A DNA stretch of 64,000 bases from Pyropia haitanensis. Its lineage: Eukaryota > Rhodophyta > Bangiophyceae > Bangiales > Bangiaceae. Below the pieces are notes generated by a model. It worked only from the letters and a program-made list of their open reading frames with translations, did no database searches and was not told the origin of the DNA. Below, piece by piece: positions 1 to 56,173 of this stretch. Numbering within the stretch: the first letter of the stretch is position 1; each line of letters starts with the position of its first letter. The position numbers were made by a program, and so were the translations under genes. The stretch lies in assembly GCA_008729055.1 (NCBI GenBank), contig SDUX01000005.1:608801-672800 (forward strand). Direction: 5' to 3'.

Positions 1-3000
1 CGGACAAGGGCCGCAGAACGGCCAATAACGCTACAAGCGGGTCCGCCGCTGCCCCGCCCGCGCCGCGCCCATCCGCCGCCCCGCCCGTGCGGCCGTTCCA
101 GTCGATCCGCGGCCACCGTACGTGGGCCGCGGTCCGGAACGGGTGGCACGGGCGCCCGCGTATCCACTGCCACGTGCGCCAGCCGAGGTTGGCCGCCGCC
201 GTCACGTCGCGGTTCACCATCCCTCGGGCACACGTCGGCTCCACGCAAACCTTGACGCACCTCACCACCGCCTTGCGGTCCGCCCGAAAGACCGGGCCCG
301 CGTGCGGCCGCGGGTTTGCAGCCGCCCGTGCCGTCGCGGCGTTCTCCGCCTCGGCGCGGCACGCCGCCCGCCGGCGGGCGTACCGCACCGGCGCGCTGCG
401 GTCCCACCACCCGCGCTGCACGCCGCTCGGCCGGCCGGTGCGGCCGCGCACGCCACGGCGCCGCCCGCACACGCGCGTGCCGCGGGGCACTTGCGGCGGA
501 GACGCGGGCGTCGGGAACACCAGCGCCAGCCGCGTGTGGCAGCCGTCGCAAGCTGCACTCGTGTTGCGCTCGGGCACGTCCACCGTCCAGCACAGGTGGC
601 GCAGGCGACGCGTCAGGTGCAACGCCCCGCCGCGCGTCGCAGCGTCGCCAATCGCCACCGCCACGACAGCCCCATCCACCACACGGCGTAAGCGGCCGCC
701 GGTCAGTTCGCGCGCCACCTGCGCAGCAAACCTCCCGCGCTGCAGCACTGCGTGCAGCCGCGCCGTACGCAGACCGCGCGTTCCCTCCGCGCCCCACAGG
801 TCTCCGTACAGCGCCTGCGTGCGGGCGGCCAGCCACGCGCGCGACGCGACGCGCACCGCTTCTGGGTCTGCCACGGAAATCGAAGCGTGCTCGGTCACTT
901 GCTCGGGCGTCCGCACGCCCGCAGTGTCACCCAGCTGCGTGATGCGCTCCACAGCCGCCGCGCGATGGGCTGCCACCGCGCGCGCCGTCATGCCATTGCC
1001 ACACGCCACATGATACCGGCCCCGTGACAGTTTGTACACGTCGCCCGCAGGGGGGGGGGCACCGTGCCCGCGACTGGCGTGCGTCGCCGCGCGTACGCGG
1101 CCGGCCAGGCCACGCAGCGCAGCCGCGTACGCCTCCGCCGCAGTGCAGTCAGCCTCCATGGCGCCCGCACGGTCCACTCGGTACGCCTCCAAGGGCGCGC
1201 GGCCGCCGTCGACGTCGGCCGCCACGACCCCGCGCGTCGACCGCGGAAGGCACGCCCTTGCCACGCGCACCGCCGCGTGCCGAGGCACGCGCCACCGGCG
1301 GCGCCCGGTCGCCGCCAGCAGTCCGCCCACGGCGGCGCAGAGCTCGACGCGGCCGTCTCGCCGTGCACGCCGCGCGGGGCCACGCACGCGGCGCACACAG
1401 CGGCGCGTTGCGTGCCTCTCGTCAGCGACCGCCATCGCGCCGGGCGCTGCGGGCGCGGACGGGCTGCCCCGACTGCCGGGCGATCGTGCGGTACGCGCTG
1501 CCGCAGTCGCTTGCGACGCAGCCGCACTGCCGTCGCGGGTCGTCCCGCCCCCAGCCCCCGCCACCTCTTCGACACGCCGCCGCTGAGCTGAGGGTGATCG
1601 CGCACCCGTGTCTTCTCCCGCCCTCGGCCGCGTACGGCGCTTTCCAGTGCGCCCGCGGGGTGCCTGCAGCGGTACCACCGCCGGTGCGATCCCGGCCGCC
1701 GCGTCGGCCGCCGCCTCCACCGCCGCCGTAGCCGACGCAGAGAGGCCGGTCACACGCGTCACAACGGCGTCGACCGCCAATGCGGCTCGCAGTAGCGCGT
1801 CATTGGCCACCAGCCGCGCGCGCTCCAGCCGCTGCGCCCAGATTCGAGGGCGCGGTGCCCACGCGGCGGCCTTTGGGCCACTTGACACCGCCGTCAGGAC
1901 CGCGCGGACGCCGGGATCCGCCGACACAATCGTGAGCGTCTTGACATCAGCCACCAGGCAACCCTGCTTCTCCAGCTGTGTCGTTGGCGAGCCCGCCAGC
2001 CGCGGACGCACGCGCGCACCATCACGCCGCCGCGTCGCTGCCGCCACGTCGGACGCCTCCGCTTCCGCAGGCGTCGCCGGGCGCGACACAGAGAACGCCA
2101 CGCAAACGCCGTCGGTTGTCAGGTTTGCTCCGACAACGCGTGTGCCTCCCGCAAGTGGCGGGCCTGGCAGTCGCGCCGCGAGCGCGGCCGCGCCCGACTT
2201 TTTTACCGCCGCCCGCCACTCCTTGTCGCCCACGCGCAGGCCGTTCACCAGGCGGCTGAGGCGCGCCCTTGTCAGCGTGCCGTGCATGTGCAGCGGTGCG
2301 GCCTTGCCGGGGATGAGCGCGAAAGGCCGGCGCACTTCCTCCTGCTGCACGGCCAGCAGGAACGGAGTGTACGCCCACCACCGCGACGACACTGCCGCGG
2401 CGCCGCCGGTTGGGAAGAGCGCCGCTGGCCCTGAGGCCGCCTGCACGGAGGCGCTGCCGGTGTGGGCCGCCGGTGGCCCCTCTCCCGACGTCGTGGGCTG
2501 CACCCGCCCTCGCAGCGCCGCAATCGAACCCAGCACGGCTGTTCGTGCCGCAGCGTCAGGCACCGCCGACTCGAACCTGGTCGCCGCAGCCCCAGTCGGC
2601 GCGTCCAGAGCGCGCGCAAAGCACCAGCACGCGGTTGCAAACACGCCGCGTCGCCCGTCGCTGCCCCGCGGGCCAACGGCCGCGGGCGCCCCGTCCGTCA
2701 CCTTGCCCGCCAGGCCCCGGAGCGCGCGCTCGACGCGCGCCGCCGTTGTGCGCGCGAACCGCGTGACCGTGGGCGTCCACTGCGCGCGGTCATTCTTCCC
2801 CGGCAGGTGCTCGTGGCACGGCGCGTCCAGCGCGGGCGCGAGGTCCGTCAGCGCTGTTTGCGTCGCAGCCACCAGGGCGGGTACCGCGCCGCGCACGCGC
2901 GCCCCGGGGGGCGCGACGGCAGGCAGCACCAACCTCGCGTACGCAGGGCCGCTCAGCTTGTTCTCGCGTGCCCGCCCACACGCCGCGCACTCGACCGTCC

Positions 3001-4153
3001 TTGGCAGCGTACCGCCTTCCGCACCACGGCAGCTGACCGCGTTACTGGCCCAGTGCCAATAGTCGGTCCAGCCCGCGGGCGTCGACGGGAGCGCGCCTGC
3101 CCAGCCCGCCGCCCCGACCGCGGCGTACAGGCGGTGGGCGGTGTTCAGCCACAGCAGGCGCAAGCTAAAGTCGAACTGCGTATGGTGGCGCGACACGGCC
3201 TCAAACTCCGCGCTCAGCGCCGCGGATGTTGCCGCGCACGCGGCCGCGGCCGCCGGCAGCGGCGGCGGCTCGGCCGGAGGCGCCAGCGCGCGCACAAGCA
3301 CCGTCAGCGGCACCGTCACCGTCGTCGTCACGGTCGCACGGTTCGCGTACGGGTCCGTCACAGCCGGGTCTTCGCCGCGGTCGTACACGTGCGGGTTCGT
3401 CGTACCGCCGAACGCTTTCGCAGGGCACGCCGCCGACCTCGTCGCGTGCGCTCGGCTCCGGCAGCGCGCGCAGGCGCGAGGGAGTCTTTCTACGGCGGTG
3501 CCCGCGCTCGTGACGCCCGCCGCGGCCGACCATCGCTTCTCGACGTCGGCAGAGCGGCGCGGGAGGCCGCGCGCCGTGCCGCTCACCAGCGGTGCCGCCC
3601 GCGTCGCGCGAAAGGCCAGCCGCGACGCGGCGTCCCCGTCGTGCGCCCGCGCGTGCACCCACGCGGTCGCTGTGGCCACCGCAGCCGCTACGGCTTCTGC
3701 GACCGCGTCAGCCGTCGTCAAAGCCGCGGTTCGCAGCGCTGCCTCCGAGGTCGTGCGGGGGACGGCAGCGGTACCGCCGGCGGTCGCCGCCGACGGTCGC
3801 GGCGGGTCAGAGGGCGCGTCAGCGGCCGCGTCGACGGCGCCCGACGCGGCGCGCAGCGCGTTGATGACAGCAACGAGGTCTGCTTCGGGAGTGCCATCGC
3901 GCACCGCGGTAGACACCGCCGTGACGTGCGCCAACACCCTCTTCAGGCGCCACCGCTTGATGCACAATGCCTCCAGCATGAAAGTGCGCTCGTCAGGTGG
4001 CGGCGCTTGCGCCGACCGCGGGGAACTGTCAGGCGCGGCACTGCCCGCGGCCACGCCCGATGCGGCGGTCGACATGGCGTCCTCCTCCGCGTCGCTGCCG
4101 TCCCCGCCATCGATGTCACTACCGTAGTCTGATGGCGTAAACGCCTCCATCAT
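1..4153 (-). CDS. Fanzor (eukaryotic TnpB-like RNA-guided nuclease), 3' end outside window
   Basis: The frame is open from tandem ATGs at 4153/4150 to the left edge, at least 1,384 codons, so the C-terminus is missing. It has the RuvC signature of Fanzor/TnpB proteins, which cut DNA guided by an RNA encoded beside the gene. RuvC-I is ADPGVRAVLTAV with Asp746 (codon 1916-1918), after a beta block containing VVGANLTTDGV. RuvC-II is VPERNTSAACDGC with Glu1195 (569-571); Cys1202 and Cys1205 start a zinc ribbon that continues at Cys1299, Cys1303 and Cys1308. RuvC-III is NRDVTAAANLG with Asp1316 (206-208). The N-terminus is acidic. A knuckle-like C-x2-C-x4-H-x6-C sits at 228-243 and another CxxC at 389-392. 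All three catalytic acids are present. Oddities are great length and a 449-residue Ala/Arg-rich stretch between RuvC-I and RuvC-II, partly perhaps disordered. The family call is firm; activity and the host element's ends cannot be judged because the 3' side is outside. Confidence 0.85.
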   Translation of the reverse strand, partial: MMEAFTPSDYGSDIDGGDGSDAEEDAMSTAASGVAAGSAAPDSSPRSAQAPPPDERTFMLEALCIKRWRLKRVLAHVTAVSTAVRDGTPEADLVAVINALRAASGAVDAAADAPSDPPRPSAATAGGTAAVPRTTSEAALRTAALTTADAVAEAVAAAVATATAWVHARAHDGDAASRLAFRATRAAPLVSGTARGLPRRSADVEKRWSAAAGVTSAGTAVERLPRACARCRSRAHATRSAACPAKAFGGTTNPHVYDRGEDPAVTDPYANRATVTTTVTVPLTVLVRALAPPAEPPPLPAAAAACAATSAALSAEFEAVSRHHTQFDFSLRLLWLNTAHRLYAAVGAAGWAGALPSTPAGWTDYWHWASNAVSCRGAEGGTLPRTVECAACGRARENKLSGPAYARLVLPAVAPPGARVRGAVPALVAATQTALTDLAPALDAPCHEHLPGKNDRAQWTPTVTRFARTTAARVERALRGLAGKVTDGAPAAVGPRGSDGRRGVFATACWCFARALDAPTGAAATRFESAVPDAAARTAVLGSIAALRGRVQPTTSGEGPPAAHTGSASVQAASGPAALFPTGGAAAVSSRWWAYTPFLLAVQQEEVRRPFALIPGKAAPLHMHGTLTRARLSRLVNGLRVGDKEWRAAVKKSGAAALAARLPGPPLAGGTRVVGANLTTDGVCVAFSVSRPATPAEAEASDVAAATRRRDGARVRPRLAGSPTTQLEKQGCLVADVKTLTIVSADPGVRAVLTAVSSGPKAAAWAPRPRIWAQRLERARLVANDALLRAALAVDAVVTRVTGLSASATAAVEAAADAAAGIAPAVVPLQAPRGRTGKRRTRPRAGEDTGARSPSAQRRRVEEVAGAGGGTTRDGSAAASQATAAARTARSPGSRGSPSAPAAPGAMAVADERHATRRCVRRVRGPARRARRDGRVELCAAVGGLLAATGRRRWRVPRHAAVRVARACLPRSTRGVVAADVDGGRAPLEAYRVDRAGAMEADCTAAEAYAAALRGLAGRVRAATHASRGHGAPPPAGDVYKLSRGRYHVACGNGMTARAVAAHRAAAVERITQLGDTAGVRTPEQVTEHASISVADPEAVRVASRAWLAARTQALYGDLWGAEGTRGLRTARLHAVLQRGRFAAQVARELTGGRLRRVVDGAVVAVAIGDAATRGGALHLTRRLRHLCWTVDVPERNTSAACDGCHTRLALVFPTPASPPQVPRGTRVCGRRRGVRGRTGRPSGVQRGWWDRSAPVRYARRRAACRAEAENAATARAAANPRPHAGPVFRADRKAVVRCVKVCVEPTCARGMVNRDVTAAANLGWRTWQWIRGRPCHPFRTAAHVRWPRIDWNGRTGGAADGRGAGGAAADPLVALLAVLRPLS

Positions 4154-5485
4154 CGGCACGGTAGCGTTTTTGTGGGGGCCGCCGAGCCAGTCGCGCGCGT
4201 TGCGAACGCGGTGTCCGCGTCGGTGACGCCGTTTGTCTGATGCGGTGCGGCACGACCGCGATTCGGACCGCGACAGCGCGCAAGGCAGCGCCTGAAGACG
4301 TGCGCGGCGCTGTGGGCCTCGCACGAGTGGTCCATACTGGGAGCGACAGCGCCTGTGCCGCGCCTGGCGACGTTGGTGGGGGTGGGCGCGCTCTTTGGCC
4401 TGGCTTCCCCGAGGTGCGCCGCTGAGATCACAAGTCGGACCTCCGAGCTCAGCCTTCCCGCTAAGGCAACCGGTCAGGTCCTGAGCTTCGTACAAGACAG
4501 ACCGACCAGTGGAGTTGTCCCGTATCCACAGGCTCGGGTCGCATGGACGCACGAGGGCCCGATTTCATCGCACCAATAAAAATCGAGGAGGGGACGATGC
4601 GTGGTGCAACTGATGGATGGGGGCGCGAGCTGTCGACCGCTCTCAGCCGCAGCCTGAATGTAGCGGCGCACAGCGCTCGGGCTTGAAACAGCATCAGCCA
4701 GTAGAATCTCTGGGATACACAACTTACAGCTGTTTTCCATCGCTGTCAAGCTTCGTGAAAAAATCACTTCAAAACTGGGATAGATGGATACATTTAGCAG
4801 TGTTATCTCTTGGACGGATGTACTTTGGAACGCGAGGGGACTGCAGATGTCCCACTCTTGGGCTTTCAATTTGTCATGTACGTAAATACTGGTTTTGGTG
4901 TAGATGCTGCGGTGAGGACACTCGCCGGTTGGGGGCGTCTGCCTGCTGCGACAGCAGTGCGCCGAAGCACAAGGGACTGGTAACGGCTACCAGTGCGCAC
5001 AGGCCGGCACGCGGCCGCCGGCCAATGGGAGTTGGGTGTCGATAGCGCTAGCGGCTGGCGGCGGGGGGCAGCGGCAACCGGCAGGGGTTGGGGTTGGTGG
5101 CGGGCGGCGGCCGCCGCTGCCGGAGAGGTTGGGGCGGGAGGGGCCGGCGCCCGCCGGCAGCATCAGTCACCGCTGGGTTGGAGCGCGGCGATTCGCAGCA
5201 CTACTGGCCGAAGGGGAGCGTCGACGGCTGCTCGTGCGGTGGCTGCTTCTCCAGTCAGCCGCGGAAGGGGCAATCCCTTGAAGCATGAACGAATCAATAA
5301 AGGAGACAGCTTGATAAGCCCAACATCTGAGCGAACTTACGTACTCATGGGCGACATCGACTAGAGTCATGAACCTTTGAAGCTGTAACGAAAATATGAC
5401 AGCTCGTCGGGGGTTAATCGAGTTTCATTTGTAATGTCCTATTCAAAACTCAGAACGCGTGTGTGCTTGGGACGCGAGCCTATTA
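4154..5485. other. Spacer upstream of the Fanzor gene
   Basis: No gene is recognised here. Base composition drops to roughly half GC around 4690-4900 and 5280-5480, with GC-rich CGGCGG patches at 4990-5240. It should contain the promoter of the minus-strand Fanzor gene. Short open frames exist on both strands, but none shows a domain or sensible composition. Confidence 0.4.
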
Positions 5486-6042
5486 GGGCACGTCCACCAA
5501 TGTCGATATTCGCCGATATTCGTGCCACGTAGGAAAAACGTGGCGCGTCGGGCCAAACGTGGCACTGATGCGGTCGTTCATCAATGTCAACGAGCTATCC
5601 CGGCCTAAAACGAACCCCCCTCAGCGAATAGACTTGACATAAGTGACGACATAACTTCCTCTCCGTACCCTGACGTCTGTTAGCTCCAGAGCTATCGCCG
5701 GGCCAAAACAGGGTGTTTTGGCCGAGCGATAGCCCTGGAGCCAACAGACCTTACCAATTGCCAGGGCGATGATTGGCTGAGAGCGTGCCACGTGTGGGCA
5801 TCATTTCGACAGTGTGATAGTGGAGAGTTGTCAACACCAACGGCCTGGAACGAAGACGACGAACGGACCCTTGGTTTGGAAGGTAGCCTGTTGGTAGCCC
5901 CCGTCTCCACCGTAAGTCCACTTCACGTGCTTCGCCTGATAGCTCGCCGATAGCCCGACCACCCAGACGCTGCCACGTATGTACACGTGGCGTCTTAAAA
6001 CGACTCATTTAAGACTGATAGCCGACATTGGTGGACGTGCCC
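5486..6042. mobile_element. PIF/Harbinger-type MITE, 557 bp
   Basis: The ends are perfect 20-bp inverted repeats, GGGCACGTCCACCAATGTCG, flanked by the direct repeat TTA at 5483-5485 and 6043-6045. A 3-bp TTA duplication is typical of PIF/Harbinger elements. The repeat shares the core TCCACCAATG with the 19-bp ends of the two large Harbinger copies in this window. No coding capacity is seen, so this would be a non-autonomous relative mobilised in trans. Its centre carries a 73-nt near-perfect hairpin (5676-5748). Confidence 0.8.
5676..5748. repeat. Internal hairpin of the MITE
   Basis: Two 35-nt arms (5676-5710 and 5714-5748) are inverted copies with four mismatches, separated by a GGG loop. 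It could be a nested palindrome or the remnant of a small element inserted inside the MITE. Confidence 0.75.
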
Positions 6043-6136
6043 TTAACACTGGTGTGGGTTCGATTCCAGGCATGCGACAGCGAATTTTGCAGGATTTTCA
6101 AGGCGATTTGCACAACACGTCGAACGAGTAGTAATA

Positions 6137-6897
6137 GAGAGTTTTGGCAAGTAATCCGACGGTCGCTTTCGACTGTATCTCGACGGAATCTGGAAAGAGT
6201 CGAGATACCGTTTTTTTTCTACCGTCGCGGACTCGAACGAGTTTTGGCAAGTAACTTTCCTGTAACGCGACAGTCCTGTACAAGAACGGAACAGAAGGCG
6301 AGGCGCGCCACCACCAAGGCAGTGACGCAGCACGTCATTGCGATCGCTTCCACCAGTGGGACGCCACAGCCGGCGCGGCTTCTTGGTCGCCGATTCAGGG
6401 ACCCCACCAGTAGACGGCCGGTCCCGCCTCGAGGACGCAGACGACGCATCCTCTGCAGGTGTGGTAGGGCTCGGGGATGACATATTCGGCACGACGTGGA
6501 GGCAGCACAAGGCCAACAAAGGGGGGAGGGTGGGTGCAAGGGGCTGGGAAAAAGGCGCGCAACACGACAACGATCGGCCCGCTTGGCCAAGCCCACTGAC
6601 ACCACGGACAGACCACCTGTCCCTCAGCGCCAGCCAAGCTGCGTCCAATGTACCAGAAATGGTTGTACCGGCATATGGCGGCCCAAACCACCCGCCTTTG
6701 GGGCCTCTCACGCGCGACACGTGGCTGAAAGGTACAGCTTTTCTTCAACGCGATCCACCCGGGCCCGACTGTACATCCCGAGAATACCGTCGGGGACGGT
6801 CGGAAAATCCTGTATCTCGACGGTAGCTCTGAAACGTGGCGCAATGTACAGTCGAGATACCGTCGAAACAACAGTCGAGTTACTTGCCAAAACTCTC
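6137..6897. mobile_element. Short inverted-repeat element (MITE-like), 761 bp
   Basis: The ends are 18-bp inverted repeats GAGAGTTTTGGCAAGTAA, flanked by the direct repeat TAATA at 6132-6136 and 6898-6902. Sub-terminal segments at both ends also share imperfect CGACGGTATCTCGAC-like motifs in several orientations. It has no convincing coding sequence. The superfamily is unclear because the duplicated bases (TAATA, or AAT within it) fit no single class well. Confidence 0.65.
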
Positions 6898-6902
6898 TAA
6901 TA

Positions 6903-6962
6903 TCCCAGTAGTACTACTGGTGAGTGGTGGCATCCCAGTAGTACTACTGGTGAGCGGTGGCA
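6903..6962. repeat. Two 30-bp tandem copies carrying a 16-bp palindrome
   Basis: Two head-to-tail 30-bp units differ at one base. Each contains the perfect palindrome CCAGTAGTACTACTGG. The pair lies directly beside the right end of the 761-bp inverted-repeat element. Confidence 0.8.
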
Positions 6963-7255
6963 TCCGTGAGCCGTGCCACGCGTGAATGCGAGAAGTACAA
7001 CTCGACTGGATCGTTGCCAGGTTAACTATTAAGAATTCTTCGATGGAATTGTTTCATGATTTTATCAAGTCCGCACAGTTCCATAGAACACGTTGAAGTT
7101 TGGTGTACCCGCGTCCGCCTCATTGCCCTGTGCCGCGCCCCGCCCTCGTCCCGCCCCCTTGCCGGCCGGCGCCAGCAGTCCACGTCCGAGAAAGGGTTAA
7201 GCGCTGCAAGTAAGTATGGATTGATGGAAGTAAGGTTGGCAACCCACAACCCGCG

Positions 7256-7740
7256 ATGAGGTTACTTGAAGGGTCCAGACGTACTCGTACCTGGATACTC
7301 GGTCGCGGGTTGCCGCCACGTCGGCACGTTGTCCCATCGTGCACCAAGGTCGTTTCGCTCAGCTCCGTTTTCTCCTCTCGGCAGGCGTCGGGCGGCTCTC
7401 CTGTTTGCACCAGCACTCGCCCAGCACTCCCGGGGCCGCCATTTCTGTCGTCGCCGCGCCAGCGGCGCACCGCCCGGGCAGTGGCGGCGGCGGCGGCCTC
7501 GGCGCCCGCACCGGCGGCGCGGCGGCCGCCGCCCTCCGCCAAATCTGGTGCGTGGCCGCTCTGGGCGCGCGTGGTTGCGCTGCTGGCCGCTTCCGCGCGG
7601 CGTTTGTCGCGGGAGGCGACGGCTGTAGAGGCGGACCAGGGGGAAGGGGCGCCGAGGGGGGAAGGGGGGGGGGGGGGGGAGGGGGGGCGGTGACCGTACG
7701 CATCGTTGGCGAATGGGTGCGGGATACGCTGTTGGGAGGG
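7256..7740 (+). CDS. Possible 5' part of a CCA-adding enzyme-like gene (tentative)
   Basis: An ATG at 7256 opens an Arg/Ser-rich leader that could be an organelle transit peptide, followed by a helical segment around PLWARVVALLAASARRLS (about 7560-7620). After a G-run, a second frame reads VTVRIVGEWVRDTLLGG (7690-7740). This resembles the R-h-x-G-G-x-VRD-x-LLG motif at the start of the catalytic head of tRNA CCA nucleotidyltransferases, with Glu for one motif Gly. The DxD and later motifs expected next were not found in any frame. It could be a decayed fragment, a homopolymer-broken gene or chance similarity. Confidence 0.25.
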
Positions 7741-8340
7741 GCGGCGGAGGGGGGGGGGGGGCGGCGCGACGGCGGCGGCGGTGGTGGTGGCGGGGCGGGC
7801 GGCGGCGGCGGCGGCGGCCTTTCTCCGCGGCCGCCTCGGCGTGTCCCTCCGCCACGCGGTGGCGGTGGCGGCCGCGCACGGGGCGGCGGCGGAGGTGGCG
7901 GCGGTGGCGGCGACGGCGCCTGTGGCGGCGGCGTCTGCGGAAGACGCGGCGGCGGCGGTAGCGGGGGCGGCGGCGGCGGCTGGTGCGGCCACGCGCGGGA
8001 AGGTACATGGCGGCGCCGCCGCCGGTGGGGTACCGGCCCGAGGCGGAGGCGGCGGTGGCAGCGGCGGCGGCGGCGGCGGTGGCGGTCGCAGTGGGCCCCG
8101 CCGCGGTGGCGGTGGGAGGGGAGGTCCGTGGAAGTGAGAATGCTGCGGAGGAGTTCCCGCTTCGGGAGCGAGGCGGGGCAGGAGGGGAGGGGAGGGGCGC
8201 CGGGGGGGGGATCCGCCTCTACGGTGGGAAGGTAGCACAGGCGTTCGAGCATCCACGACAGTAGCGGAGGCCGCTGCCGCCGTCGCCGGCGGCGGACGTA
8301 TGGGCGGCCTCCCCGGAGACGGCGGGGGGGGGCGGCCAAG
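7741..8340. other. G-rich Ala/Gly-coding-like stretch, no gene recognised
   Basis: Long GGC/GCG runs leave several plus-strand frames open. One reads as an Ala-rich helical segment around 7830-8000. No domain is recognisable and the frame cannot be fixed because of repeated G homopolymers. Confidence 0.3.
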
Positions 8341-8645
8341 GCAGGGACCCCTCCCCCCCCTCCGCGTGAAGCCCCCGTCCCCCCGCGTCGTCGCCCCCCC
8401 ACCCCCCGCGTCAGCCCCCCCCCCCCGCCCGCGTCGCACCCCCCCCTCCCCCCCGCATCATCTTCCACCCTCCCCTTCTCTCCCACGCCCCCCCCCCCTG
8501 AGCTCCCCCCGCCCCCCCCCACCGTACCGTCACGGCGCGTCGGCCACGGCCACCACGCACCCTACCCCCACCACGGCCGCTACCCCCCCCCCCATACCAC
8601 CCACCGCAACACCCCTCTCCGGGTTACGGCCCCCCCGGACCCCGC
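8340..8645. other. C-rich pyrimidine tract
   Basis: About 300 bp of C runs broken by single bases on the plus strand, just ahead of an ATG at 8690. The same arrangement (C-rich leader, then G-rich coding) precedes the starts at 16067, 22927 and 57896, so this may be a 5' leader. Confidence 0.5.
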
Positions 8646-8689
8646 CCCCGGCACCCGACGGCGCCAGCGCCGCCCCGATGTGCTCGATG

Positions 8690-9286
8690 GCGGGCGGGGC
8701 GGCGGGGGGGGTCGCCGCCGCCGCGCCGGAGCTCGTCGATGGTCTCGCCGTCGCGGCGGCCGCCCCGCTGGGGACGCCCGCTCGGGAGGAGGAGGTCGCC
8801 GCAACGGCCGCGGTGGCAGGGGCGGTGGAGCGGCTGGCGGCCGCGTCGCCGGCGGCGACGGCGGCCGAGGCAGCCGCCGCGGAGCTCCCGCCGCTCGTCG
8901 CCCACCCGCCGGCGCGCCGGGGGGGGGGGGGGCGGGGGGGGGGGGGGGGGGGAGGGAATGTGACACGCGGCCGGGGAAGGGCGCCGCCAAGGGGGGGGGG
9001 GCGGGCGTGCCGGGCTCCTCAACGCTGCGAGGGCGCGGCGAGCGCAAAGACGATGGGGGGGGGGGGGAAAGACGGCCGAGAGCAGAGCTGTGCACGCCCC
9101 CCCCCCCCCCAATGGCCAGAACCAGCGATTGCCTTGGTGCAGACAATGCCAGCAGACCAGCCTACGCGGGAGCCTCGTGGCACCGTGAAGTCGGCTCGTC
9201 GCACATGTTGGACACCCGCCACACCCCGGGCTCCACAGCGGGACTGGAGGGGTCATGTTCCGATGTACGGCCAAATCCTTTGCTAA
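8690..9286 (+). CDS. Putative Ala-rich protein, unrecognised
   Basis: The open frame from the ATG at 8690 starts with an amphipathic Ala/Val/Glu-rich segment (roughly the first 70 residues, including PELVDGLAVAAAAPLG), then collapses into Gly runs at a long G homopolymer (8925-8955). The first part looks like coding DNA with GC-biased third positions; the rest may be in the wrong frame. No function can be assigned. Confidence 0.3.
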   Translation, partial: AGGAAGGVAAAAPELVDGLAVAAAAPLGTPAREEEVAATAAVAGAVERLAAASPAATAAEAAAAELPPLVAHPPARRGGGGRGGGGGGGNVTRGRGRAPPRGGGRACRAPQRCEGAASAKTMGGGGKDGREQSCARPPPPQWPEPAIALVQTMPADQPTREPRGTVKSARRTCWTPATPRAPQRDWRGHVPMYGQILC

Positions 9287-10247
9287 TATGGACTTGAATC
9301 AGCTGGTCCCCTGACGCTTAGAGGCCAGATCCCAGGGGACCAGGGGGGGGGCCGATTCCAGGCAATCCAGGGGGGGGGGTGGTCCCCTCAGGCCGAGTGG
9401 ATACTGCTTCCCCGTCCCGCGAGGGGCGGCGAGCCGGCAAATTGTGTACGAGGCGAACTACTTTCGAACACGCCTGTTCAAGGGTAGTTGGCCAAACGAT
9501 GCCACACGCACAATGGGCAGGCTGTCGCCTCCTCATTTCTTTCGGCAATAATTTCTACTGACTGTCAGGTACGTGCAAGCCGCGAGCCCCCCCCCCCCCT
9601 CACAGCACCCCCCCCGCCTAGACGCGCGCCGCCCAATCTCCCCCCCCCACCATTGACCGCCCCCCGCCGCGTCGCACCCACGCCCGCCGCAGGCGGCAGC
9701 CTGGCACGCGCGCGCGGCGGCCAGACCGGCCGGCCCCGTTTGCGGGGCGCCGCCGGCCGCCCCCCCCCCCGCGCGTCGGCCCCGCCTCCGCCGCCTCCTC
9801 CCCTCCCCCCGCTCCCCTTCCCGTTGGCAGACCCCCACCGGGTGCGGCCAGCGCATCTGGCGTCGGCGCCCCCTCCCCCCGCCGCCCCGGCCGCGCGTCA
9901 CGCCGTCACGGACGCGGCCGGCGGCGCGTCGTCCCCCCCCCTACCCCCCCCCCCCCCCTCCCCCCCACCCCTCCTCCCCCAACCACGCGGTGCTTGCCGC
10001 GAGCGCTCCCCCCCCCCCCCCTCCCCCCCTAGACCCTGCAGGCACGCAGCCTTGCAGGTGTTGGACGCGGCGAGGCCCGCCCGCACCGCCGCTGCTGCCG
10101 GGGCCTTGGCCGCGCGCAGGCGCGCGGCGGCGGGTGGCGGGAGGCCCTATGACGCGCGGCGTGTGGCGGCGCCGCTGGTGAGGTCTGGCCGACGCGCCCG
10201 CCGCCCCTGCTGTCGCCGCCCGCCGCCCACCCCCCGCCGCCTGCCGC

Positions 10248-10293
<46 letters not shown>

Positions 10294-10620
10294 TCCTGTC
10301 GCTGTCGCTGCCGCCGCGGTCGGCCGTGGCACCCTCTGCCCCCGCACAGCGGCCGGCAGGTGGGGTGCTGGGTGGGTGGGTGGGTGAGGCGGGACCTACG
10401 ACCCGGCCGCCCGTGGCACCGCCGCCGCCGCCCAGCGCGCGTGCCGCCTGGCGCTGGCTGTCTGCGCTGCCGCAGCCTGCCCCTACGTGCCTGCCAGACG
10501 TCGGCCGTGGTCTGGCCACCACCCAAGCCAGGGGTGGCCCCGAGGGGCGGGGTTACAGACGTACGGGGGTGGGGGGGGCGGCGAAGCGGGGAGAGGGGGG
10601 TTGAGTAGAGAGGGCTAACG
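9287..10620. other. GC-extreme region without a recognised gene
   Basis: 9290-9580 is mixed sequence with short G runs. 9580-10030 is dominated by C runs. 10240-10300 is a (CCG)n stretch. A plus-strand frame around 10050-10180 and another ending near 10600 look weakly protein-like, but no domain or consistent frame can be defended. Confidence 0.35.
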
Positions 10621-11054
10621 TCTGCATGGGTCGCAGCCTGCCTGCTTTGGTGTGACCGGGGGGGGGGGGGGGGGGGGAGGGGGGGAGGGTGGAGGGCAGC
10701 TGCTCACCCCGCCTGCGCCCTGCCGGCTGACCTGGCCCCCTCTGTTTTTTTGTGGTGGTGCTGCCGCGCGGGCCACCCGGCTGCTGCCCCTCGTGGGTGG
10801 GGCGTAGGGTTGGCCGTCGGCCGACGCGAGTTCAGCCTCCCCCGGGCCGCCCATTCCGCCCCTCCACCTCTCCCCACATGAGGTGGGCATATCAGGGGGG
10901 CGCCGATTGTCAGCAGCCGCGGTCGGCGGCGCCGCCACCCCCCCCACGCTGCCGCCCTCCACCCCCCCTGCTGCCGCCGCCGCCGCGGCTACCGCCGCCG
11001 CCGCCGCCGCTGTCGCCGCCGCCGCCGCTGTCGCCGCCGCCGCCGCCGCCGCCG

Positions 11055-12524
11055 TCACGCGGGCCGCCCCGACGCGGGCCGCGGTGCCGCGGGCGGGGCG
11101 GCACCGCCGCGAGCGGGCGACCGGGCGGCCGCGAGGCGGTCGGCGTGCGCGGCCGCGGCGCGCGGCGCGCGGCGCCGCCCGCCACGGCGCGCCGCCCGCG
11201 GGCGGCGGGCGGGCACCGCCGCGGGCGCCGCCCGCAGATCCGCGCGCGGCCGCCGGCCGCACCCCCCCGCGCGCCGGCGGCGCCACGCGCCCGCACGGGG
11301 CGCGCACACGCACGCCGCCGCGGGCGCCTCCAACCCCCCCGCCCCCCCGCCCGGTGGCGTCCCCTCGCCCGCCGCCCCCAGCGCCGCCGCCACCCGCCCG
11401 ACCACCGGCGGCACGTCGGCGGCGGGGGCCTCCCCCCCACCCGCGGCCGCCGCGGCGGCGCCCCCGCCGGCGGCGGCCGCCGCGTCGGCCAGGGCGGCCA
11501 CCCCCCGCGCGACGGCGCGCCACCCGTCGGCGGGGCCCGCCCCCCCCCCGCCCGCGCGCCCGGCGCCACCCCCGCCTCCAGCGCCGCGAGGCCGGCGGCG
11601 GCCAGCGGGCGCCCGCCGACGGCCACCCCCGCCAGCACGTCCGCGGCGGCCGCCACCGCCACGCCACCGCCGCCCCGGCCGCCGCCACCGCCGCCGACGC
11701 CGCCGCCGCGGGCTGCGACGGCCGCCAGGGCGGCCACCGCCGCGGCGGCGGCGGCCACCGCGTACGCCCCGTCCGCGGAACCCGCCGCCACCACCGCCGC
11801 GACGGCGCGCAGCGACGCCGCCACCGCCGCGGGCGGCGGTGGGGGCGCCCCCCCCGCCGCCGCCGCCGACCGCGCCACCGCCGCCGGCAGCCGCAGGTCC
11901 GCCCCCGCGTAGTACACCACCGGCGCGAGGGCGTCGGCCCAGGTGGCGGCGGCCGCCGCCGCCGCCGTCGCGCCCTCCCCCCCCCCCCCTTCCCCGCCGC
12001 CGCCGCCGCCGCCGCGCGGCGGACCAGCGCAGGCAGCGCGGCGGCGTCGGCGGCGGCGGTGGCGGCGGCGGCGGCGCCCCCCCGGGGCGCTCGCGCCAGC
12101 ACCGCGGCGGCGAGCGCCGCCCACGCGGCCCCGTCGGGGGTGGCGGCGGCGACCGCCACGCGCGGCACCACCGCCGCCACCCGCACGGCGGCGGCGGGCG
12201 GCAGCGCCGCCGCCACCGCCGCCGCCGCGGGGGCGGCGTCGCTTCCACCGCCGCCGCCGCCGCCGACGCCGCCGTCGACGCCGCCACCGCCCGCCGCCGC
12301 CCCCGCCGCCCCCGCCCCCGCCCCCGCCGGCAGCAGCAGCGCCGCGACGAGGCGGCGGCAGGCGGCGCCGCCGGCGGCGGCGGGCGGGGCGGCCGCCCAG
12401 GCGGCCGCCCAGGACGCCACCGGCGCCGCGCTCACGAGCGGCGACAGGTGCGCCGCCGCCGCCACGAGCAGCGCCGCCGCGCGCGCAAGCGGCGGCTCCC
12501 CCGCGCCCGCCGCTACCGCCGGTC

Positions 12525-12555
<31 letters not shown>

Positions 12556-13310
12556 TCCGCCGGTGGGGGTGCGCAGCGCGCGCCCCCCCACCGCCGCCAT
12601 CACCGACGCGTCCAGCACCGCCACCGCCGACGCGGCCACGACCGCCCATGCCGATGGGGCGCGCGCCACCCCCCCGCCCACCCCCGCCGCCGCCGCCACC
12701 ACCGCCGCCCCCGCCCGCCCCCCCCCCCTGGCCCCACCGGCGGCCGCCGCCGCGGGCGCTCCCCCCCCCCGCCCCCCCCCCCCCCCCCCCGCCCCGGGGG
12801 GCACCGCCCGCAGCCACGCGGCCAGCCCCAGCGCGACCGCCCCGTCGGCGGCGCGGCGGAGGGCGGGCACCCCCCCCCCCCCCCCCCCCCCCCGCCCCCC
12901 CCCCCCCCGGCGGCGCCCCCCGCCAGCGGCGCCGCCGCGACCACCGCCGGCAGCAGGGCGGCGCCGACCGCCGCGGCGGCGCCGGGCGGCGCCGCGACCA
13001 GCAGCCGCGGCAGCGCCGCAAACGCGTCGGCGGCGGCGGCGAGGGCGCGCGCGCGGGGGAGGGCGTCGGCGGGGTCCCCGGCGGGCGTCGCCTCCCCCCA
13101 CACCGTGCGGAGGGTGGCCGCCAGGCCCGCCGCGTCCGCGACGGACAGGGCGGCGGCGGCGGGCGGGAGGGCGCCCCCGCCCCCGTCGCCGCCCCCGCCG
13201 CCGCCGCACCTACCACCACCACCGCCGCCGCCACCGCCGTAGCCGCCGCCGCCGCCTCCGTGCCACCGCGCGGCGGCCGTGCGCAGCGTGTACACCACGC
13301 GGGATGACGG
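11055..13310 (-). CDS. Probable Ala/Leu-rich helical-repeat protein, frame-broken
   Basis: Minus-strand translation gives a run of Ala/Leu/Val helices interrupted by Gly runs, for example LSVADAAGLAATLRTVWG (about 13100-13160), VALGLAAWLRAVPPG (near 12800), LARAAALLVAAAAHLSPLV (near 12450) and WADALAPVVYYAGADLRLP (near 11900). This resembles HEAT/ARM-type alpha-solenoids, but no family was recognised. The convincing segments lie in different frames and each switch falls in a C/G homopolymer. Either the assembled run lengths are wrong or the gene is decayed. The limits are approximate; the start is probably near 13310 or further upstream. Confidence 0.45.
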
Positions 13311-14950
13311 AGGGTGAGGCAGGCAGGGGGGGCAGCGGGCGGCAGTGGCGGCGGTGGCGGGGGCCACGCCTGTGAGTCCCGGGGCGCGGTGGGGAGTGGC
13401 ATGGTGGTGCACGCCAGGGGAGGGTGGGGGGCCGCTAAGCAGGGGGCAATGGGGGGAGACGCCCCCGCGCTCCGCCCCGCCGCCGCCGCATGCCAGTGGT
13501 GATGCCGGCTGCGGCGGCGGCGGCGCGGCGCGAGGTCGTTCGCGGCGCGGCGTGCGTCGCCGGCTGGGTGGCGGCGCCTGTGGCTGGCGGTGGGGGCGCA
13601 GCCGCCGCCGTGAAAGCTCGCGCGGTTGTACGTCTTGCCGACCACCACGAAAGCCACGGACCGCACCCGCAGCACGTCTCCCACCTTTCTTCCCCAGCCC
13701 CCGCCCCCCCCCCTGTGCGGTTTGCCCCATCCCACTGGCCGCCAAATCCAGGCCGCCCAAATACCGCTAAAACGGGGCAGGAGAGAGGGCCGTTCCAAGA
13801 CTCTGATTGGTCGAAGCCTCGGCACGGACGCAGAGCTGCATGTGCGTGCCGTGCCGAGCCTTGAATACGGGCTGGGAACGGGTCGAATGGAGCCCGCATG
13901 CGATGGTGGCAGGACCGTGCCGCGATACATCAGGTATTCCTGGGCCGTACTTGCGACCCCCCTCGCGGGTCAAACATATGACAGCTTATTCGTCACATGC
14001 CGTCACAAGCCTGGGTACTTGAAGACCCCCCCCCCGTGCCGGCCGTGGAGGGGGCACTGTCTGCGTTGCTAGCGGTGCCCTGTGCTGTGGGGACGGGACG
14101 CTCGCCGCATCCGCCGCAGGCTAGGCGCGCGCGGTGGCGGAGACCGTTTGGAGCGCTGACTGAAGCGCGGACTGGGCACTCGCGCGGACGCACTCGCCAG
14201 CATATGTAACAGAGAATCCGCATTCACGGGACTGGGATTATCGAATAGGGCCCTGGGGAAGGACCGCCCTGGCCGGGCTGAGCCGGTACGGAAGGGGAAC
14301 GCCAAAACGGGGGGGGGGGGGGGCCGCCTGCCTGGTGCGGGGGGGGAGGGGGGCCGAGGGGCGCAGCGGCGCCAGCCGTGGCGGGGAGAGGGGCGGGAGG
14401 CCCCGTGCCGCCACCGCCATCGCCGCCGTCGCCGCCACCGCCGCCGCCGCGGCCGCCGCCGCTACCGCCGCCGCTTGAACTGCGGCACCGACGCCGGCCG
14501 CGCGCCCGCCCCCGCCCGGCGGCTCATCGCCACTCCACGGCGGCGACGGAGGCGGCGACGGCGGCGGCGGCGGTGGCTGCGGCAGCGGCTCGTGGTTGCG
14601 CCGCGGCAGCAGCATGCCGGGCGGGCACGCCTGGCGCCGCCGCCGCCGCCGCTGCGGCGCCTGCTGCAGGGGGGGACATTCCCCGGCCAGCGCCGCCCGC
14701 CGCCGCGGGCGCGTCGCCGGCCGCCGCCAGGTGTCTCCCGGCGGCGGCGTCCTCCCCCCCCCCCCAAGCGGGCTTCCGCCGCTTCCCCCCCCCCGTCCGC
14801 CCGAAGGACGGCAACGACGACGGGCACAAGCGACGGCACTACGTCGGAGCGGCAGCCGGCAGCCAGTCTCATCCGCACGGTGCACTTCGGAGGGAACAGC
14901 AGGCCGCAACTTGTTCTCATAATTTCCGATGCGGCAGCCCGCGTTAGCTA
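13311..14950. other. Region without a recognised gene
   Basis: 13310-13640 is G-rich and may hold the 5' end of the minus-strand helical-repeat gene. 13640-14230 is of ordinary composition with no clear frame. 14290-14790 is CGG/GCC-rich, with open frames on both strands that give only Pro/Arg/Ala low complexity. Confidence 0.35.
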
Positions 14951-15600
14951 TGGCACGTCCGCTAAAAATGGGACACTCAGAGTTTCCTACGACAATCTTT
15001 GCCCCAGTGAACTCGCGACGTCAGGCACCCAATCAATTCTCTGAGGGACGAGCTGCGCTGATCTCCAGATCGAATGATCAGCGCCACGGGAACCTTGGGT
15101 GGTCCGATTTGGGACCGGTGTCGGTCCTTCGGACAATCGATCATCGAGACCAGTCAGATCAAGGTCGATTCCTGTTTGTCAAGCCAATGAGATGCGTCCA
15201 CGCTGCGCTGTTAGCCTCGCTACTGATTCTGTGTTCAGAAACAGGCGCCACGTTGGCCACTCGACCGCAATAGTTTCTGAAAAGAATGGCCTCCAGAGCC
15301 CTCTATAATGAGCCAGAGTGTGGCCACCCGCTCCCACGGCCTCTATTCGGGCTCCCCTAGCTCGTCTAGCAAATTGTTTCTCAAAAGTTTGACTCCAAGA
15401 CTAAAAGCACACCCGAGCCGACCCCTGAGAGGCACGTCAGGCGCCCTTTGGACGTCAAATTAGGGGCAGTCGGTGTCGTGATCGCACTCGAGTTGGCCGA
15501 CCAGAGCAGAAGTTTGATTTCATGCATCGATTGCACCACTCAGATGGGATGGGAGTTTCCCAGACAAACACCGCGTGTCCCATTTTTGGCGGACGTGCCA
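14951..15600. mobile_element. Inverted-repeat element, about 650 bp (MITE-like)
   Basis: The ends are inverted repeats beginning TGGCACGTCCGC and continuing to AAAAATGGGACAC (about 26 bp, one mismatch), flanked by TA at 14949-14950 and 15601-15602. A TA duplication would fit a Tc1/mariner-type element. The interior is AT-richer than its surroundings and has no convincing gene. Confidence 0.55.
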
Positions 15601-16066
15601 TAATAAACTCTCACGGTCGTTTCGAAACTTTGTGGGGGGACCGGGCTAATCCTGGGGGGACCGGGGGGACCCCCCTCAAATGAGCATTCCAGAGGGGTGC
15701 CGGTCCCCCCACGTCGAATGAGTGTAGCTTCTACCGCCAAAGCGGTGACGGCGAAACAACTTTCCGTTCTGGGTGTGGGCCGAACCCAGCCACCAACCGT
15801 ACTGGAATTTGGCGTGTGTACGGTACGAATCCGGCACCCATTGGTGGGGGATCAGTCTTGACCACGGACCACCACCGCTGTGACGACGGCGGCCACCGTC
15901 GTCCGCATACCTCTCCCACGACGCCCTCCACTCTTCTTGGCGTGGCGTTATCCCCCCTCGCGAGCCCTTCCCCTCCCCATCAACCCCCCTGCTCCTCCCC
16001 CCCCACGCTGGGCTATCGCGACTGCGGCCTGCAGCTGTCCCCCCCCCCACCCCCCCGCCGACGACC

Positions 16067-54369: not shown

Positions 54370-56173
54370 CTAACGCATGAGGTCGTCGTGTCGATGCAGG
54401 TAGGGCGCGAGCGCGTCCTTCCTATGCGCCCAGATGTGCTCCACCAGGTCCTCCCGCAAGCGCTCATGCTCCGTCGGGCTCCGCAGGCCGGACAACCGCT
54501 GCATGTCGTCAGGGTGGCCTGAACGGCAACCACGACCGTCGACTGCTTCAGCTCCTCCGCGTCCACCTAAAGATCCACCGCCTGCGACCACCCGTCCCGC
54601 GCCACGAGCACCGACAGGTCCACACGGCGTGCCAGCCACCAGGGCGCCACTCCCCGCGGCCGCCGCCCCCCCACTTCCGCCAGACGCACCAGCTGGGCCG
54701 GCCGCCAGGGTGCCACTCCCCGCGGCCGCCCCCCCCCCACCTCCGCCAGACGCACCGGCTGGGCCGGCCGCCAGGGTGCCACTCCCCGCGGCCGCCCCCC
54801 CCCACCTCCGCCAGACGCACCGGCTGGGCCGGCCGCCAGGGTGCCACTCCCCGCGGCCGCCCCCCCCCACCTCCGCCAGACCCACCGGCTGGGCCCGCCG
54901 CCAGGGCGGCACTCCCCGCGGCCTCCGTCAACGCTGCTGCAGCCGCCGCGGCCAACGTCGAGGCCGCGGCGCCCGGCTCACCAAAAGCATCGCCGATGCG
55001 GCGCCGAGAGAGATACCCGTCCCGACGGTTAATGACGACCATGTTGTGCAGGATGGCCACAGCTTTGGCAGTGCGGACAATGCGGTCGACAGAGTGGAAT
55101 TTGGCAGGCCGGAGCAAAATGTGGAACCGCGCGGTCAGCACGCCGTACAGGCTGTCGACGTCCTTTCGAAGTGCTTCCTGCAGTCGGTTGTACGTGCGAC
55201 GTTTCAGGGAGTTGTTGGCGGCACGGGAGAAGGGTCGGGCAAAGAAAGGAAAATGGGGATAAACACCGTCGGCCAAACAGTACAGTAAGCGACGGGTCCG
55301 GCCGTTCAGTGTGTACTCAAACATGTCCGGGGGCCATTGTCCACTGCTGATGTCCATACACAGCGGGGACTGGCTCCACACGTTGAGATCGTTGTGGCTC
55401 CCAGGCGGGCCAAAAAAGAAATGCCAGATGAAAAGGTCCTCATCACAAACCGTCTCCATGACCACAGAGCGTCGCTTCTTGTAGTCTTGGTATTGGCCTG
55501 CAAGCGCTTTGGGGCACATGCGCCAGGCCCAGTGAGAGCAGTCAATGCTGCCCATACAGCCTGGCATGCCCCGTGCCGCGTTACGGTCGAGGATGTGGGC
55601 CAGCTCCTCCATAGTGGGTGGCCGCAAGTAAGAGCACTCGTAGTTGTCCACGATATGGTCGACTAGCATCTGCGTCGCTACCGCCGTTGTTGACTTCGCC
55701 AGGCGCAGGTACTCGTCAGGCTGATCAGCGGCCTCGCCGTACGCCAGCACGCGAGAGGCAGCCACCACCTTCTGCAGTCCATGCGCCTGTGGCTGCCCAG
55801 TTGCGTTGACCGTCCGCTTCCAGTAGGGAAGATCCTTCACGTCGTCGTATACCTCCATAAAGACAATCCGGGGCACACGAAAGCGCGTCTCAAAATTTGC
55901 CTCGCCGTACACAGGCGGGCACCCGTCCGCGCCAAAGTAGTCACGAAGAATGCTATGGAAGCCCCCATCGAAACCACGCGGGCGGTTGGGCCGGCGGCCG
56001 GGGACGGACCCGCCGCGACGTCGGCGCCGCGCCACGGCGCCCAGCAGCGCCACGTAGTGTCGCCGCCGCCGAAGAGAGAGCTGTGACGCGAGCACAGCGG
56101 CGCGCGTCTCGTCGGCCGACCCCTCAGACACCTCCCACGCCTCCCGATCGACGGCGGGGAGGGGCGGGTCCAT
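54370..56173 (-). pseudogene. Transposase of right Harbinger copy, frameshifted and active-site altered
   Basis: The ATG at 56173 and catalytic region are colinear with the left copy. The first two acids are kept (GSIDCSHW; GSHNDLNVW), but the third reads RKDVDSLYGVL: codon 55154-55156 encodes Asp where the left copy has Glu340. The Gly/Ala linker has four tandem units (54650-54900) against three in the left copy. A change in G-run length shifts the frame, so the conserved C-terminal helix (ending at 54370) is in a different frame from the catalytic part, whose own frame stops at 54548. The frameshift could be an assembly error in a homopolymer; the substitution could not. Confidence 0.82.

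Follow-up and report, generated by a model that had tools for sequence, protein, structure and literature searches.

Fanzors, the eukaryotic RNA-guided nucleases, have been described from loci that produce an omega-RNA from their 3′ end and use the variable flank as guide, ghost loci included (PMC10432273). The published Fanzor1/TnpB pattern joins D-x(125,275)-[TS][TS] with a compact C4 zinc finger (PMC3627910). In Fanzor1 structures a glutamate sits between strand five and the zinc ribbon, the third catalytic-site residue of Guillardia theta Fanzor1 (GtFz1) is N, and an insertion called FRI is presented as an exception among Fanzor1 (PMC11423790). Fanzor1 is already known in a red alga, as CMe-1A of Cyanidioschyzon (PMC3627910). 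Here we analysed a stretch of 64,000 nucleotides from another red alga, Pyropia haitanensis (contig SDUX01000005.1, positions 608,801 to 672,800; hereafter the window). A long open reading frame (ORF) in it belongs to a multicopy mobile element of ~14.6 kb. Judging from sequence comparison, we find it quite probable that this ORF encodes an oversized Fanzor1 relative, likely an RNA-guided DNA nuclease, with an omega-RNA produced from the 3′ end of the element and the adjoining DNA as guide.

RESULTS

The ORF lies on the minus strand, starts with an ATG at window position 4153 and shows no stop up to the left edge of the window. The sequence-only reading, an earlier inspection of the same DNA, had recognised in this frame RuvC-I, RuvC-II, a split zinc ribbon and RuvC-III with their acids in place, and D746, E1195, C1202/C1205, C1303/C1308 and NRD1316 are indeed found there. 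We aligned seven proteins, among which two rows of one genomic family (A, that of the window) and three of another (B) are near-identical. In this alignment D746, E1195, C1202 and C1205 are invariant in 7/7, and NRD is kept in 6/7, P0003 being without that end. In window coordinates (minus strand), the RuvC-I motif DPG (residues 746-748) occupies 1910..1918 and was aligned with the DPG of GtFz1; E1195, the candidate catalytic glutamate just before the zinc ribbon, occupies 569..571 and was aligned with the E of VPEHYTSQEC in GtFz1. The first half of the zinc ribbon (TS-x-x-C-x2-C, residues 1198-1205) lies at 539..562, the second cysteine pair, C1303 and C1308, at 230..247, and the RuvC-III motif NRD (residues 1314-1316) at 206..214. 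The Fanzor1/TnpB order D - [TS][TS]-x-x-C-x2-C - C-x4-C - RD is thereby reproduced by D746, TS1198-1199, C1202/C1205, C1303/C1308 and RD1315-1316, with E1195 in addition. The cysteine pairs are 97-98 positions apart in the aligned proteins, and the 97-residue stretch interrupting the ribbon (248..538) is arginine-rich and carries the invariant C1229 and C1265.

Ordinary family searches miss the protein on account of the ~97 residues that interrupt its zinc ribbon. In whole-protein Pfam searches, PF07282 (curated cut-off 26.3 bits) was not returned for the window protein and appeared only for family B, at 14 bits (E 0.05-0.057). When most of the zinc-ribbon insert was left out of the profile, with a splice chosen by eye, PF07282 became the sole Pfam match of this 'spliced' ribbon (family B, E 1.5e-5, 25.5 bits; family A, E 0.0022, 18.5 bits). 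A longer spliced core gave PF07282 in three of five members (best E 0.0002) and DUF5937 in one of five (E 0.023); its alignment with GtFz1 brought the RuvC-I DPG of the latter in matching order. Against NCBIfam, the spliced ribbon matched two TnpB models and Cas12c (E 0.015-0.21), all below cut-off. The match to Fanzor/TnpB hidden Markov models that the sequence-only reading had called for is weak: no whole protein passed a cut-off, and the matches obtained with the insert left out stayed below it. Of two degenerate-DNA scans for Fanzor1 references in viral contigs, one gave eight loci, where the motif scan found only an unrelated protein, and the other none, hence no Fanzor. The proposed Fanzor identity holds in so far as the protein is Fanzor-like, with RuvC motifs and a split ribbon; the link to Fanzor is carried by the motifs, the spliced search, the GtFz1 match and the RNA described below.

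The length of the ORF is not evidence by itself, since the DNA is ~75% GC; conservation is more informative. A protein search returned two database relatives of the window protein, P0002 (80% identity) and P0003 (50%), and a search with the family B protein returned these two again and nothing else. An uncharacterised Pyropia yezoensis protein, P0005, is 99% identical in the best local alignment; the public annotation of P0005 (I4F81_012934) seems to splice the continuous ORF to 636 aa, omitting blocks. Within the P. haitanensis genome, families A and B share ~50% protein identity, and nonsynonymous differences (pN) are fewer than synonymous ones (pS), with an omega ratio of 0.48 over 1,262 codons and of 0.46 over residues 579-1345. 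By part of the protein, omega ranges from 0.24 to 0.89, the maximum falling on 45 codons around RuvC-III. In the codon-aligned families, each of the three antisense frames contains 3 to 19 stops, which fits the earlier view of the shorter plus-strand frames as antisense shadows; up to codon 1372 the minus-strand frame itself, with its motifs and conserved homologs, stands as first read.

The genome searched was a 53-Mb assembly of 136 contigs. It contains at least 59 DNA matches to the ORF, a lower bound as scoring covered the best candidates only. Besides the window copy, family A has five matches of at least 3.4 kb at 98-99% identity. Four copies show 85% DNA identity in the last 1.4 kb of the ORF and ~68% farther upstream, and family B forms a further group at ~66% DNA identity to the window ORF. 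Uninterrupted copies of the ORF are present elsewhere in the genome: L012 and L013 carry uninterrupted coding frames of 1,394 aa, and stop-to-stop frames of 1,380-1,440 aa are found in five of eight fetched family B copies (L025, L026, L027, L028 and L031). Two observations concern the exchange of parts between copies. The final ~441 bp of L019-L022 are >99% identical to L012 although the ORF is at 85% and the upstream DNA at ~68%, as might result from recombination or conversion of that end. In family B, L024 and L030 have 50 bp of upstream DNA in common, joined to different points of the ORF, and are like internal deletion derivatives.

The window copy of the ORF is interrupted. A 15,194-bp foreign insertion (C6:593642-608835) begins at window position 35 inside codon 1373; its first 35 bases (1..35) break the ORF, and CCGCT is found on either side of it, the left copy of this 5-bp duplication lying at 36..40 (junction comparison, L054). 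The Fanzor-like ORF of the window thus consists of residues 1-1372 and part of codon 1373 (36..4153, minus strand), and the matching 3′ end of its element lies at C6:593389-593569. The sequence-only reading had assigned the whole frame, up to the window edge, to the Fanzor. This does not hold from codon 1373 on, where the frame belongs to the insertion and its continuation is chance. Leftward extension of the contig yielded the awaited stop, which ends 107 bases past the edge for a total of 1,419 codons; the element 3′ end comes only ~15 kb beyond. Window position 29 had been considered as the true 3′ end of the element, or as a truncation, and both were dropped once L054 revealed the interruption. 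The inserted 15.2-kb element (L001, L054) has 9-bp inverted ends, TGTAGCGTT and AACGCTACA, next to the 5-bp duplication, and two of its frames gave no Pfam match. As another element sits in codon 1373, the RNA end of the window copy is 15 kb away from it; cut and displaced in this way, the copy is probably no longer a working unit.

What lies beyond the junction was read from the intact copies. L012, L013, L014 and L018-L022 run past it to the stop codon, continue with ~180 nt of noncoding DNA and terminate at a sharp end, GGTCCCCCCACAGCGGTAAGC; the DNA beyond this common end differs in 8/8 copies. RNAalifold on eight distinct 3′ ends, three of them close, predicted 55 pairs, and 92.8% of cells pair. 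Pair changes on both sides numbered 18 versus 10.5 +/- 2.0 in shuffles (0/500 as high) and 1-10 in slid versions, the structure being derived from the same alignment. Further pair types were less clear, 41 versus 36.0 in shuffles (15/500 as high). Covariation spans seven helices, G-U pairs included, and the covarying helices end at the element border: helix 1 spans the stop codon, and helix 5 closes at the border with a GGGG/CCCC hairpin inside. Folds of single sequences gave z-scores of -2.82, -2.55 and -1.71, and the lone family B fold is without the long-range closing helix.

A genome search with the hairpin pattern gave 35 sites, and the reversed control gave 0. Of the 35 sites, 25 lie next to a Fanzor coding match, another belongs to the interrupted window copy and nine are without a coding match; two of these nine adjoin 5′-arm sequence, as expected of ORF-less deletion derivatives. 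An Rfam search gave no match. At the sequence level, the element 3′ end carries a structured noncoding RNA sequence, and this noncoding stretch with its variable flank would be laid out like a Fanzor omega-RNA with its guide. A guide-like RNA overlapping or following the 3′ end of the gene had been anticipated just outside the window; it is predicted at the element 3′ end, 15 kb away.

The gene had been expected to sit in a transposon, and the element bears this out: it is multicopy, with sharp ends and differing flanks, and measures ~14.6 kb without two small nested insertions. Its part inside the window spans 36..15731 on the minus strand, with the 5′ border at 15731, common to 14 fetched ends; the last ~250 bases lie past the insertion, at C6:593389-593641 (L054). 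The 5′ terminus (15700..15731, minus strand) reads GAAGCTACACTC..., with a subterminal repeat GTGGGGGGACCGG at 15700-15712. At this border GAAGC is found in 15/15 ends, preceded by a purine in 15/15 and followed by TACACTC in 14/15; GAAGC may be either element or target sequence. GGTAAG is followed by C at 19 of 23 3′ ends of this and a related type, by T at three and by G at one; this count leaves out L059 and L060, which have another ending and one common flank, and the degraded L073. The 5′ end of L041 (C9:4233376-4233675) carries AGAGCTC where the other 14 carry TACACTC. AGAGCTC is also found after the 3′ end in L021 (C9:4356001-4366000), on the same contig and strand, ~131 kb apart; this looks like the exchange of a coupling sequence or a very large element.

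Comparison of copies placed the nested insertions at 5486..6042, a small one absent from other near-identical copies, and at 6133..6901, a ~765-bp genome repeat with many 98-100% copies. The 94 bases between them belong to the Fanzor element, and a single insertion at window 5485-6898 was rejected, as two insertions flank these native bases.

Other mobile-element genes were noted. A 541-aa ORF at window 54548-56173 on the minus strand matches PF04827 Plant_tran (E 1.2e-55) and DDE_Tnp_4 (1.5e-11) and encodes a DDE transposase, which we take to be of Harbinger type. Elsewhere in the genome there are ten PF00589 phage-integrase-like matches (C93, C9:2603510, C10:1186515, C8:3031402, C3:6621051 and others), four of them in frames of ~1,400-1,650 aa, possibly other recombinase elements.

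DISCUSSION

We infer the RuvC fold, transcription of the 3′ end and binding of its RNA, the flank as guide and cutting of the unoccupied site. In the mechanism that we propose, the element 3′ end would be transcribed together with a short stretch of flank, and the protein, once loaded with the resulting RNA, would be guided to the same sequence of an unoccupied chromosome. The target would be recognised beside a target-adjacent motif (TAM) at the 5′ border, possibly GAAGC. After cutting, repair templated by the occupied chromosome would preserve or copy the element.

Several results weigh against this reading. No whole protein scored above a curated cut-off in Pfam or NCBIfam. The splice of the ribbon profile was set by eye, and even so the family B ribbon stays 0.8 bit below the PF07282 cut-off. 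GtFz1 was the sole match of the spliced ribbon profile in the PDB, at an E-value of 0.091 that carries no significance by itself, and the longer core placed GtFz1 second (E 0.68), behind Pumilio (E 0.16). PADLOC ranked GajA at the top and Cas12f next. AlphaFold models of residues 200-1384 and 1041-1365 reached a mean predicted local distance difference test score (pLDDT) of only 32.8 and 35.1. The D-to-TS spacing, 451 positions in family A and 417 in family B, is outside the published 125-275. Ten frames in window 4474-15044, nested DNA included, yielded no transposase and one weak Pfam match (E 0.23), and none of the ten PF00589 tyrosine-recombinase matches falls within the mapped element copies, where a many-intron gene could escape. 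Finally, nine flank pairs were joined and searched for as empty sites, with no site found; the single recurring flank is a short repeat that itself ends beside the junction, so that the TAM remains a guess. A Crypton or other tyrosine-recombinase element was also considered and is not supported, the mapped copies showing no encoded recombinase.

Three other explanations were weighed. That the 3′ fold is a transposition end recognised as DNA, with no omega-RNA and a protein that is still Fanzor-like, we hold to be unlikely. The terminal hairpin does overlap the subterminal inverted repeat GTGGGGGGACCG, but covariation across seven helices with G-U pairs exceeds the needs of a terminal repeat, and a 3′ RNA whose guide comes from the flank is the arrangement published for Fanzor (PMC10432273). 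Slightly less credible still is a Fanzor-derived protein that has lost cutting, whose RuvC core would act as RNA-guided DNA binder or transposition regulator and whose large inserts would carry the present function. The zinc ribbon and the interval from RuvC-I to RuvC-II both contain large conserved inserts, for which such a protein could account; it is opposed by the retention of D746 and E1195 in 7/7 proteins and of NRD in 6/7. That the frame is open by chance in GC-rich DNA and its motifs are look-alikes is very improbable: long frames without family match are common here, up to one of 1,980 aa without Pfam match in the same 64-kb window, and this explanation is already contradicted by the homologs at 80% and 50%, the invariant motifs and pN < pS.

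About as likely as not is a broader proposal, that of a giant Fanzor lineage in bangiophyte red algae. Its proteins would be twice the usual size, with a ribbon interrupted by a conserved insert that is rich in arginine and bears cysteines, a ~180-nt multi-helix omega-RNA, elements of at least 14 kb and the TAM GAAGC, and they would be missed by the standard ribbon profile. If so, such systems would be undercounted, since that profile fails to see them. The PF07282 search of the whole genome, which gave no match although uninterrupted ORF copies exist there, is a concrete blind spot in Fanzor counting. Such a lineage would also widen the known range of size and architecture of eukaryotic RNA-guided nucleases, indicate that a large conserved insert can be accommodated in the zinc ribbon next to the catalytic site, and provide an omega-RNA model supported by covariation. 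In the portions of the Fanzor literature examined there is no description of a relative of 1,394 aa whose zinc ribbon is split, and titles and abstract openings of the open-licence literature contain no report of a Bangiales Fanzor; such genes may be listed in a eukaryote-wide Fanzor survey of 2023.

Among described systems, GtFz1 (PDB 9cer, 9ces, 9cet) is alike in that TVPEHYTSQECPSC aligns with TVDVPERNTSAACDGC and the NRN region with NRD. Its omega-RNA of 150 nt (PMC11423790) overlaps the ORF end (PMC10432273), as does the helix predicted here over the stop codon. It differs in that the E-values of the match are not significant, the ribbon here is split by ~97 residues, and NRD stands against the third-site N of GtFz1. 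In size, the 1,394 aa of family A contrast with the 600-700 aa of most Fanzor1 (PMC11423790). CMe-1A of Cyanidioschyzon merolae is likewise a many-copy Fanzor1 element of a red alga, but, by its description, is ~3 kb long with ~150 copies ~80% identical to the consensus (PMC3627910), against near-identical copies of ~14.6 kb here. Parasitella parasitica Fanzor1 (PpFz1) also has an extra domain of ~100 residues in its RuvC part, FRI, which its authors found only in Parasitella and Rhizopus (PMC11423790); compared by description, the ~97-residue insert here lies within the zinc ribbon. Spu-1 of Spizellomyces punctatus (SpuFz1) shares the layout of ORF, 3′ noncoding RNA region at the right end, variable flank as guide and ghost loci (PMC10432273), but is a locus of ~2.1 kb with a 638-aa protein and 30-nt terminal repeats, whereas the Pyropia element has ~14.6 kb and short subterminal repeats. 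As both its D-to-TS spacing and its profile scores fall outside the published and curated limits, we class the protein as a Fanzor1-like variant and not as a canonical Fanzor1: by its predicted features, it is an oversized, insert-bearing Fanzor1-like lineage.

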